A stretch of 64,000 bases of DNA from Sphaerosporella brunnea (Eukaryota; Ascomycota; Pezizomycetes; Pezizales; Pyronemataceae): assembly GCA_008704415.1 (NCBI GenBank), contig VXIS01000263.1, positions 1 to 64,000 on the forward strand. Direction: 5' to 3'. A model generated the notes under the pieces. The model was not told the DNA's origin. It searched no databases and saw only the letters and a program-made list of their open reading frames with translations. The position numbers and the translations under genes were made by a program. This document shows positions 39,465-64,000 of this stretch, in pieces. Each line of letters begins with the position of its first letter. Positions within the stretch are counted from its first letter, which is position 1.

Positions 39465-40308
39465 AGGGATGTTAATCGTACTAATTCTTTCCTGCAGTTT
39501 TTTTTTGCCTATTTTCTTTCATTTCTGGCGTTGGGTGTAGAGGCGAGGAATTCTTAGAGGAAAACAAAATCTGGGCAGGCAGAACTGGAGTGACAGCATT
39601 CTGGAGGAGGGAGAAGCGAGCGAGCATAAGTGGCGTGTTTGTTCTTGTCTTCTTGCGCGTTTTATCAGTACAGGAAACCCTTTAACTTTGATTCCTGAGT
39701 GGTTTTTTTTCACCTCTGTGATGTTTCTTTTCCGTTTCCAGTAATGTTGCGAGAAGCCTTCGATGTTATGTGTTTGACGCTGGTGATTGCGGGTGTTTGG
39801 GGTATTTTATTTGCTTTTTCCTGGTTCTGTTTTTCTGTGACACGCAGTTTATGATCATCACCCCCCACTACTCGAGTATTTCTTCTGATGTTTTACACTG
39901 GAGTCAAGTACTTAATTTTATATCCCCCTTCTTTTTTAGTTTAGTTTAGCACTACCCCATTTTTTTATTTGATTTGTGTTGGTTCGGGATCGGTTGGCTG
40001 GTTGGTTTGTGTGGCTGGCGGGTGGGTGTGGTGGTTAATGGCAATGAGGTAGAATAAAGAGAACAAAGAGACGAGGAGAATGAGAGGGGAGGTTGATAAT
40101 TGGCAAGTTGGAAAGAAAAAGAAGAAATATACTTTGGTTATATACACACATGCGCACACTGATTGGTGATTAGTGCCGAGCTGACGCGGCCTTGGAAAGG
40201 GCAGCGTTTATGGCGGTTACCTATTTGGGTAACTACTACTGCGCTAAGGGTTTGATTCTTCTGGCTACAGAATACGAGAAGAACTACAGCAGGAAAGAAA
40301 GAAAGAAG
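39465..40308. other. Convergent 3' intergenic region; left arm of the inverted repeat begins here or before
   Basis: Lies between the Ca2+-ATPase stop and the PUT2 stop. From 39929 to the right it is matched by the reverse complement of the window end. No gene seen. Confidence 0.7.
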
Positions 40309-42264
40309 TCATACAACGTTGCTGGGATACGCAACCTCGTCCACGCCCACAAACTCCTCCTTGACGCTACGCGGGCTGACGAAGCGCGTGAGCAGGTTCA
40401 TGCTGCCGGCCTTATCGTTTGTGCCGCTTGCGCGCGCGCCGCCGAAGGGCTGCTGGCCGACTACTGCGCCGGTGGATTTGCAGTCTATTTTTTAAAAAAA
40501 ATTTATTTTTTTCCATATTAGTGGTTATTATTGTTTGGGAGATATTTAAACCAGGGGTTGGGGGGGGGGGGGAGGGGGGGAGGGGGACAAACTGATGTAA
40601 AAATTCCCCGAAGCATGTCGCAGCGCCTCCTCCGCTTGCCGGATGACGAAGCGGTCGTTGGCGAACACGGAGCCGGTGAGGCCGTAGCCGCCGCCGGAGG
40701 CGTCGACGAGTTTCAGGGTCTGCTCCCACTGGTTGTCCGGGTAGACGTACACGGCGAGGACGGGGCCGAACAGTTCTTTCGAGAACAGCGGGTGCTCGGG
40801 GGAGTCGGCGACGTACACGGTCGGGTGGATGTAGTAGCCTCTGGAGTCGTCGTATTTTCCGCCGACGAGGAGCTGCAGCGAGGGGTCGGCGTTGGCTTCG
40901 TCGATGACCGCGCGCAGCTTGTCGAAGGCTTGACGATGGATCACGGGGCCGATGAAGTTGTCGAAGCCCTCATCGGGAGCACCGATCTTGAGCGCGGAGA
41001 CTTCGGCTTTGAGGTCCGAGAGGAACTCGCGGGAGACGTTTTGCGGGATGTAGACGCGCGAGCAGGCGGAGCACTTTTGGCCTTGGTACTCGAAGGCGCC
41101 GCGCACGGTTTGCACGACCGCGTTGCGGAGGTCGGCGGAGTGGTGGATTAGGTGGAAGTTTTTGCCGCCGGTTTCGCCGACGATTCGCGGGTAGGACTTG
41201 TAGCGTGCCGAGACTACGCCCGAGGCGATCTTGCCGTAGAGCTCCCGGAAGACTTGGGTGCTGCCGGTGTAGTGCAGCGCTGCGAATTCGGGGTGCGAGA
41301 GCACCGCTGATGTGATTTTTGCGGCGTCGCCAGGAACCCATTGGATCACGTTCGGTGGCAGCCCGGCTTCGAGGAGGATCTTGTAAACCAGGTAGTTGGA
41401 GTAGAGCGCTGAGGGCGACGGCTTCCACACTACAACGTTGCCCAGGAGAGCTGGGGCTGCGGGCAGGTTCCCGCCGATCGCCGTGAAGTTGAACGGTGAG
41501 ACGGCGTAGACGAATCCCTCCAGCGGCCGGTACTCCAGGCGGTTCCACACACCCTCCGAGTGCCGCTCGGGCTGCTGGGAGTACAAATCTTCCGCATACG
41601 CCACGTTGAACCGCAGGAAATCTGCAAGCTCCGCCGCAGCATCGATTTCCGCCTGCCAGGCGTTCTTGCCCTGGCCCAGCATCGTGGCCGCCATCAGGTC
41701 GTACCGGTATTTCTTCGAGACGAGGTCGGCGGCTTTAAGGAAGATGGCCGCCCGGTCAGAGAACGGCAGCGTCTCCCAGGATTGTTTGGCGTCGAGCGCG
41801 GAAGTGATTGCCGCCGCCACGTGCTCCGGCCCCGCCACCGAGCCAATTGCTAATGCGTCCCCATGAGAGGAGGGGATCGATTGCAGCTGCGTTTCTGCTG
41901 TTGTTACGGCGGCGCCCCCGACGTGTAGGGGAAGCGATATCGGCGCTCTCTGTTTCAGGTTGTTCAGGGCCTTTTCGAGCTCGTAGCGCTCGGGGGAGCC
42001 TTTTGCGTAGTGTTGCTATAGCACACAGAACGATTTTTAGCCACTTCCACGGAAATTGAGCCGGGGGGGAGGGGGACCTACGTTCAGCTCATTCTCGATT
42101 TTTGGAACTCTGAACGAGGCGAGGTTTGCGAGTCCTGCGCGCTGAATCAGAGGAACGCCGGCCGAAGGAGCTCTGGCAGCTGCTGAGATTCGCCGCGCCG
42201 CCGGCACTGCGGTGAGACGAAGGCTCGATAGTGGTCGCAGACGTTTGTAGCTGTTTGTAGACAT
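40309..42264 (-). CDS. PUT2: Delta-1-pyrroline-5-carboxylate dehydrogenase, mitochondrial (left copy)
   Basis: Three exons, 42264-42082, 42015-40593 and 40484-40309, 593 residues. It oxidises P5C/glutamate semialdehyde to glutamate with NAD+, the last step of proline breakdown in mitochondria. The N-terminus is an Arg/Ala-rich presequence ([20 protein letters not shown]). Family blocks include [30 protein letters not shown] with the general-base Glu, and [13 protein letters not shown] with the catalytic Cys. Exon 3 supplies the C-terminal block [20 protein letters not shown]. Both introns have C runs just after the donor. This copy is intact, unlike the right-arm copy. Confidence 0.94.
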
Positions 42265-61676: not shown

Positions 61677-63620
61677 ATGTCTACAAACAGCTACAAACGT
61701 CTGCGACCACTATCGAGCCTTCGTCTCACCGCAGTGCCGCGGCGCGGCGAATCTCAGCAGCTGCCAGAGCTCCTTCGGCCGGCGTTCCTCTGATTCAGCG
61801 CGCAGGACTCGCAAACCTCGCCTCGTTCAGAGTTCCAAAAATCGAGAATGAGCTGAACGTAGGTCCCCCTCCCCCCCCGGCTCAATTTCCGTGGAAGTGG
61901 CTAAAAATCGTTCTGTGTGCTATAGCAACACTACGCAAAAGGCTCCCCCGAGCGCTACGAGCTCGAAAAGGCCCTGAACAACCTGAAACAGAGAGCGCCG
62001 ATATCGCTTCCCCTACACGTCGGGGGCGCCGCCGTAACAACAGCAGAAACGCAGCTGCAATCGATCCCCTCCTCTCATGGGGACGCATTAGCAATTGGCT
62101 CGGTGGCGGGGCCGGAGCACGTGGCGGCGGCAATCACTTCCGCGCTCGACGCCAAACAATCCTGGGAGACGCTGCCGTTCTCTGACCGGGCGGCCATCTT
62201 CCTTAAAGCCGCCGACCTCGTCTCGAAGAAATACCGGTACGACCTGATGGCGGCCACGATGCTGGGCCAGGGCAAGAACGCCTGGCAGGCGGAAATCGAT
62301 GCTGCGGCGGAGCTTGCAGATTTCCTGCGGTTCAACGTGGCGTATGCGGAAGATTTGTACTCCCAGCAGCCCGAGCGGCACTCGGAGGGTGTGTGGAACC
62401 GCCTGGAGTACCGGCCGCTGGAGGGATTCGTCTACGCCGTCTCACCGTTCAACTTCACGGCGATCGGCGGGAACCTGCCCGCAGCCCCAGCTCTCCTGGG
62501 CAACGTTGTAGTGTGGAAGCCGTCGCCCTCAGCGCTCTACTCCAACTACCTGGTTTACAAGATCCTCCTCGAAGCCGGGCTGCCACCGAACGTGATCCAA
62601 TGGGTTCCTGGCGACGCCGCAAAAATCACATCAGCGGTGCTCTCGCACCCCGAATTCGCAGCGCTGCACTACACCGGCAGCACCCAAGTCTTCCGGGAGC
62701 TCTACGGCAAGATCGCCTCGGGCGTAGTCTCGGCACGCTACAAGTCCTACCCGCGAATCGTCGGCGAAACCGGCGGCAAAAACTTCCACCTAATCCACCA
62801 CTCCGCCGACCTCCGCAACGCGGTCGTGCAAACCGTGCGCGGCGCCTTCGAGTACCAAGGCCAAAAGTGCTCCGCCTGCTCGCGCGTCTACATCCCGCAA
62901 AACGTCTCCCGCGAGTTCCTCTCGGACCTCAAAGCCGAAGTCTCCGCGCTCAAGATCGGTGCTCCCGATGAGGGCTTCGACAACTTCATCGGCCCCGTGA
63001 TCCATCGTCAAGCCTTCGACAAGCTGCGCGCGGTCATCGACGAAGCCAACGCCGACCCCTCGCTGCAGCTCCTCGTCGGCGGAAAATACGACGACTCCAG
63101 AGGCTACTACATCCACCCGACCGTGTACGTCGCCGACTCCCCCGAGCACCCGCTGTTCTCGAAAGAACTGTTCGGCCCCGTCCTCGCCGTGTACGTCTAC
63201 CCGGACAACCAGTGGGAGCAGACCCTGAAACTCGTCGACGCCTCCGGCGGCGGCTACGGCCTCACCGGCTCCGTGTTCGCCAACGACCGCTTCGTCATCC
63301 GGCAAGCGGAGGAGGCGCTGCGACATGCTTCGGGGAATTTTTACATCAGTTTGTCCCCCTCCCCCCCTCAACCCCTGGTTTAAATATCTCCCAAACAATA
63401 ATAACCACTAATATGGAAAAAAATAAATTTTTTTTAAAAAATAGACTGCAAATCCACCGGCGCAGTAGTCGGCCAGCAGCCCTTCGGCGGCGCGCGCGCA
63501 AGCGGCACAAACGATAAGGCCGGCAGCATGAACCTGCTCACGCGCTTCGTCAGCCCGCGTAGCGTCAAGGAGGAGTTTGTGGGCGTGGACGAGGTTGCGT
63601 ATCCCAGCAACGTTGTATGA
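61677..63620 (+). pseudogene. PUT2: P5C dehydrogenase PUT2, right copy with frameshift in exon 1
   Basis: Exons 61677-61858, 61926-63348 and 63445-63620 mirror the left copy. Exon 1 is one base shorter: GTGCCGCGGCG here against GTGCCGGCGGCG on the left, which shifts the frame inside the mitochondrial presequence and runs into TGA after about 38 codons. Everything downstream, including catalytic Cys and Glu, is unchanged. Intron 1 has one C more, and intron 2 lacks 12 of 13 C in its last C run. Either a non-functional duplicate or a base-calling error at a GC-rich spot. Confidence 0.85.
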
Positions 63621-64000
63621 CTTCTTTCTTTCTTTCCTGCTGTAGTTCTTCTCGTATTCTGTAGCCAGAAGAATCAAACCCTTAGCGCAGTAGTAGTTAC
63701 CCAAATAGGTAACCGCCATAAACGCTGCCCTTTCCAAGGCCGCGTCAGCTCGGCACTAATCACCAATCAGTGTGCGCATGTGTGTATATAACCAAAGTAT
63801 ATTTCTTCTTTTTCTTTCCAACTTGCCAATTATCAACCTCCCCTCTCATTCTCCTCGTCTCTTTGTTCTCTTTATTCTACCTCATTGCCATTAACCACCA
63901 CACCCACCCGCCAGCCACACAAACCAACCAGCCAACCGATCCCGAACCAACACAAATCAAATAAAAAAATGGGGTAGTGCTAAACTAAACTAAAAAAGAA

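Follow-up and report, generated by a model that had tools for sequence, protein, structure and literature searches.

An inverted repeat with arms of 15.4 kb at the end of a Sphaerosporella brunnea contig is very probably a fold-back artefact

The window analysed here comprises the first 64,000 nucleotides (nt) of contig VXIS01000263.1 (hereafter C183) in the Sphaerosporella brunnea assembly GCA_008704415.1, and a near-perfect inverted repeat occupies its right part. C183 is 67,479 nt long and ends 3,479 nt past the window. In a whole-contig self-BLAST, the left arm (36450-51847, plus strand), joined on its left to the unique part of the contig, was mirrored by a right arm on the minus strand (67479-52096, of which 52096-64000 lies in the window) over 15,399 columns, with 0 mismatches, 5 gap openings and 16 gap columns. 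A spacer of 248 nt (51848-52095) separates the arms. Within the window, 39929-51847 (+) pairs with 64000-52096 (-) at 99.87% identity over 11,920 columns. This agrees with the first-pass annotation, made from the letters of the window, which had described a near-perfect inverted repeat around a 248-bp spacer with near-constant coordinate sums, from 103943 (51847 + 52096) to 103929 (39929 + 64000). The match had also been described as unbroken at the window end, and it continues uninterrupted as far as the final base of C183 (67479), such that the outer end of the mirrored arm coincides exactly with the contig terminus. Chance was rejected as the origin of the palindrome because the longest exact inverted matches in 10 mononucleotide shuffles of C183 measured 14-20 nt.

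The left arm opens with an exon of a P-type Ca2+-ATPase (36680-38602, plus strand; Pfam Cation_ATPase_C, Cation_ATPase and Hydrolase). It is followed by an aldehyde dehydrogenase family open reading frame (ORF; 40546-41838, minus strand; PF00171, Aldedh) that is mirrored in the right arm, and by a Translin/TRAX family gene (43604-44747, minus strand) with PF01997 matches in both of its open stretches (43604-44215 and 44262-44747). The arm ends in a truncated first exon of a 4HBT thioesterase gene (50949-51845, plus strand; identified by Pfam, its end placed via the mirror of the right copy). Among 10 open stretches of the arm searched against Pfam, two matched the Translin family and the other eight gave no match. 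The TRAX and thioesterase assignments of the first-pass annotation are thus backed by Pfam matches, while its PUT2 holds at the level of the Aldedh family only. The mirror of 36450-37400 lies at C183:66529-67479, and the contig ends 230 nt beyond the mirror of the ATPase ORF. As to the sequence beyond 64000, which the first-pass annotation had proposed to inspect, C183 stops 3.5 kb on, inside the mirrored Ca2+-ATPase region, an outcome that it had named as speaking against a real palindrome.

Both arms end inside the thioesterase gene, and a gene cut at the hinge offers a test, from sequence only, of which side of the hinge is natural. The right-arm copy lies on the minus strand: exon 1 (52994 down to 52098) is followed by a 59-nt GT...AG interval (52097-52039), and the reverse complement of the spacer then reads ...TTAG before a last exon (52038-52009) encoding VMAPLIAIK*. 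The spliced right-copy protein ends in ...PKQAKVMAPLIAIK. An identical tail is present in P0006, a protein of 209 residues on a 1,474-nt contig of a different public source ('lgn'); we infer that P0006 derives from spliced RNA. The left copy breaks off immediately behind the GT of the intron. Its ORF (50934-51914, plus strand) crosses 51847, and past the residues PKQAKV its codons are unlike the tails of the nine homologues compared. The nearest named thioesterases were from Tricharina praecox (72% identity), Geopyxis carbonaria (64%) and Wilcoxina mikolae (86% over 63% of the query), all of which we take to be Pezizales. Because the last exon in the spacer joins correctly to the right arm only, right arm plus spacer is, as judged from the gene structure, the natural order and 51847/51848 the putative false join. 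The spacer (minus strand) would accordingly be read as the continuation of the right arm, holding the rest of the last intron, the last exon and the downstream sequence of the thioesterase gene, and the predicted chimeric join at 51847-51848 (no strand assigned) as the point where the left copy was deprived of its intron and last exon.

The two arms differ by five indel events totalling 16 nt, with no substitution across the aligned columns. Relative to the left arm, the right arm has one A fewer in an A run, one C extra in a C run, twelve Cs fewer in a C-rich run, one G of a GG missing and one T missing outside any run. Ordinary mutation is expected to yield substitutions as well as indels. 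Because the differences are indels only, they look like long-read consensus error. Searching the genome (50.57 Mb, 640 contigs) with the hinge (51500-52400) returned matches on C183 alone, and the true continuation was not found on other contigs. A query from inside the arm (43000-46000) matched only itself and its mirror, again on C183.

We assessed whether similar structures recur at other contigs by seeking inverted self-matches in the first 10 kb of 20 contigs (C1, 2, 5, 10, 20, 50, 100, 150, 182, 184, 200, 250, 300, 350, 400, 450, 500, 550, 600 and 640). Large fold-backs were present at 5 of the 20 contig starts (C1, C184, C250, C600 and C640), and in all five the first bases of the contig were mirrored. 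The fold-backs of C184 (1-4245) and C600 (1-4694) both run from base 1, as does that of C640, which pairs 1-3071 with 3608-6681. For the other two, direct searches placed the mirror of C1:1-600 at 18416-19017 of C1 (99%, the comparison covering these 600 nt and the part near the hinge) and that of C250:1-600 at 12991-13592 of C250 (99%), in both cases where the mirror of base 1 is expected, to within about 30 nt. Spacers of unique sequence measured 248 nt in C183, 536 nt in C640 and 69 nt in C1, and were nearly absent in C184, C250 and C600. All inverted self-matches of at least 300 nt and at least 90% identity in the 20 stretches plus C183 (267,479 nt) fell in C183 or the five fold-back contigs. 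No large inverted repeat away from a contig terminus was seen in the 267 kb sampled, where the control for internal palindromes came from C183:1-36449 and from the inner portions of the 10-kb stretches. A second sample took 300 nt at random contig starts, 14 of 20 of which were searched. Mirrors on the same contig were found in at least 2 of the 14, namely C128 (131-245 at 8172-8286, 99%) and C447 (111-221 at 791-901, 98%). The starts of C313 and C442 lie in high-copy repeats, and a 93% mirror in C442 was not counted.

Differences between mirrored copies were also tallied for these contigs. The arms of C640 carry 0 substitutions and 7 indels, and the part of C1 seen near the hinge has 20 indel columns vs 2 substitutions. 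In C250, counting every site twice, there are 58 indel vs 16 substitution columns, all of them located from 6018 inwards. The copies in C250 and in the seen part of C1 differ mostly by indels that are dense near the hinge, as in poorly covered raw long reads. C600 has 6 substitution and 4 indel columns, all in the central loop. A tandem repeat with a unit of about 374 nt (from match offsets) was also observed in C600:1-4789, inside and just past the terminal fold-back, and several of the inverted matches in that contig stem from it.

Taken together, the palindrome of C183 is very probably an artefact, of whatever kind, at a contig end and not a feature of the chromosome. This is favoured because the mirrored arm ends at the contig terminus, the arms differ by indels only, the natural join is one-sided and the same defect occurs in other contigs. 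The artefact reading of the first-pass annotation, which had listed fold-back reads, amplification or mis-assembly as causes, is supported by the terminal arm end and by the fold-backs at the five other contig starts. A strand switch during amplification or library making is the cause that we propose, and we consider it reasonably probable. In such an event, a minus strand with the order arm, thioesterase last exon, spacer would break off at 51848. The broken 3' end would re-anneal 248 nt upstream, either by folding into a hairpin or by pairing with a displaced strand of like sense. Its extension there would yield a molecule in which two mirrored arms flank a unique spacer of 248 nt. The assembler would then follow the chimeric read past the true continuation and write the arm again until support ended at C183:67479. 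We infer the existence of such chimeric reads, the use that the assembler made of them and the laboratory step responsible. Artificial palindromes are described in PacBio reads after whole-genome amplification, and an assembly built from palindromic reads shows inverted duplications (PMC6218980). In one multiple displacement amplification (MDA) reaction, 406 of 475 chimeras were inverted and 337 of these joined segments less than 10 kb apart, which was ascribed to 3' ends re-annealing to displaced strands (PMC1855051). The jump in C183 is inverted and spans 248 nt, within that 10-kb range.

Several observations weigh against a strand switch, or against an artefact altogether. The defect is common and not universal: the first 10 kb of the other 15 of the 20 contigs held no large fold-back, and among the matches listed for the second sample, 12 of 14 starts had no accepted mirror (C313 and C442 being uninformative). 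In C184, again with every site counted twice, substitutions occupy 24 columns and indels 22, about as many of one as of the other, and C184 could be argued to be a different case. Its substitutions cluster at 1655-2590 of the fold-back (C184:1-4245), unlike the indel-rich C183, C640, C1 and C250, an observation for which we offer no explanation. For MDA, PMC1855051 excludes self-priming by a hairpin, and a switch of template onto the strand that is being displaced, as major routes; it reports 2-21 complementary nt at the junction in over 70% of all cases and complementary bases in 93.5% of inverted joins spanning less than 10 kb. At the C183 join, the sequence immediately ahead of the breakpoint has no base in common with the new template (the side before the join being the only one that can be compared). 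Furthermore, the case is built on the letters of the assembly. A contig end by itself is no proof either, since assemblers would also tend to halt at a long palindrome that is real.

Other fold-back artefacts need no amplification, such as a missed PacBio hairpin adapter or the reading of both duplex strands in succession (as in nanopore or ligation-made inverted repeats). We regard such a cause as possible but rather doubtful, its share being part of the high probability assigned to an artefact as a whole. Missed SMRTbell adapters yield reads of the same structure (PMC6218980), inverted-repeat reads made up 0.18-7.33% in ligation libraries (PMC13141652), and the near lack of a spacer in C184, C250 and C600 fits this kind of origin. 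However, a missed adapter predicts no unique spacer, whereas C183, C640 and C1 each have one. The adapter sequence scored 11.5 of 45 at the C183 hinge, no better than shuffled sequence (reached by 9 of 50 shuffles). At the C640 hinge it scored 16 of 45, above 50 of 50 shuffles, which we put down to a GAG-repeat there. A missed adapter as sole cause was rejected given the unique spacer and the shuffle-level score at the C183 hinge; these two lines of evidence decide between kinds of artefact only. The strand switch is favoured because it would explain hinges with and without a spacer, while a missed adapter would explain only those without.

A genuine inverted duplication that arose very recently by fold-back in the strain sequenced (for example from a break capped by a hairpin), its arms measuring 15.4 kb or more and ending the contig by chance, would account for the clean join and the long arms. 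A very young palindrome would also be expected to lack substitutions, as C183 does, and the inverted repeat as first observed is correct. Nevertheless, we judge this to be very unlikely. It requires the coincidence of a right arm ending exactly at the contig end and like events at five of 20 other contig starts, in a sample with no large internal inverted repeat, and indels remain the only differences between the arms. Nor was a second flank found: in the genome search no other contig joined near 36450, and a single additional match, on C140, is 68% identical and looks like a paralogue, although such a flank may be missing from the assembly. A natural palindrome with a second flank was rejected on these grounds. 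A variant in which hairpin priming beside the thioesterase intron gave a true fresh duplication with 15.4 kb or more in each arm, and with the fold-backs elsewhere reflecting a genome-wide rearrangement process in the fungus, seems even less credible. Long palindromes kept alike by gene conversion do exist, as on sex chromosomes, which counts for a natural structured locus (an old palindrome of that kind, or a hairpin chromosome end). Against this, an ordinary gene lies at the hinge, its left copy breaking off right behind the intron GT; inverted matches within the spacer do not exceed 8 nt; and no telomeric repeat was seen by eye in the last 300 nt of C183. We consider a structured locus the least probable of these origins, and a telomere hairpin was rejected given the ordinary thioesterase gene at the hinge. 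For the recent rearrangement that the first-pass annotation had entertained (isochromosome, dicentric or structured locus), nothing was found in its favour in the assembly sequence.

The remainder of the window holds other features. A Ty3-type long terminal repeat (LTR) retrotransposon with a chromodomain occupies 8695-17494, with a gag-like ORF (9683-12067) and a pol ORF (12663-16262). Its LTRs are direct repeats of ~1.0 kb (8695-9702 and 16485-17494) with no mismatches and 2 gap openings, and part of this LTR matches the left end of C183 (1-368) at 98.9% identity. A high-copy element at 1262-2083 has at least 43 matches at 90-99% identity on other contigs (from the best 40 of 341 candidates); among the matches listed, eight have their start in the opening 1,000 nt of a contig. 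Foie-gras_1 and Gryzun domains are encoded by neighbouring ORFs (22572-25689) that are probably one gene, presumably TRAPPC11-like.

For users of this assembly, the results are a warning not to trust gene copy numbers, or inverted duplications, close to the ends of contigs; before the assembly is used, these ends should be trimmed off or the reads split. Among known systems, the artificial palindromic reads addressed by Pacasus resemble C183 in being near-identical inverted duplications with a hinge; they differ in that they were seen as reads, whereas C183 is known from the assembly alone and amplification would be a deduction (PMC6218980). The inverted-repeat chimeras of nanopore ligation libraries have the same mirrored structure, with read fragments on both strands of one chromosome, although the terms 'spacer' and 'loop' are absent from that text (PMC13141652). 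The inverted chimeras of MDA (PMC1855051) share with C183 an inverted join to a segment close by in the same locus (at a distance of 248 nt in C183), but no shared base was seen before the C183 breakpoint, the side open to comparison.

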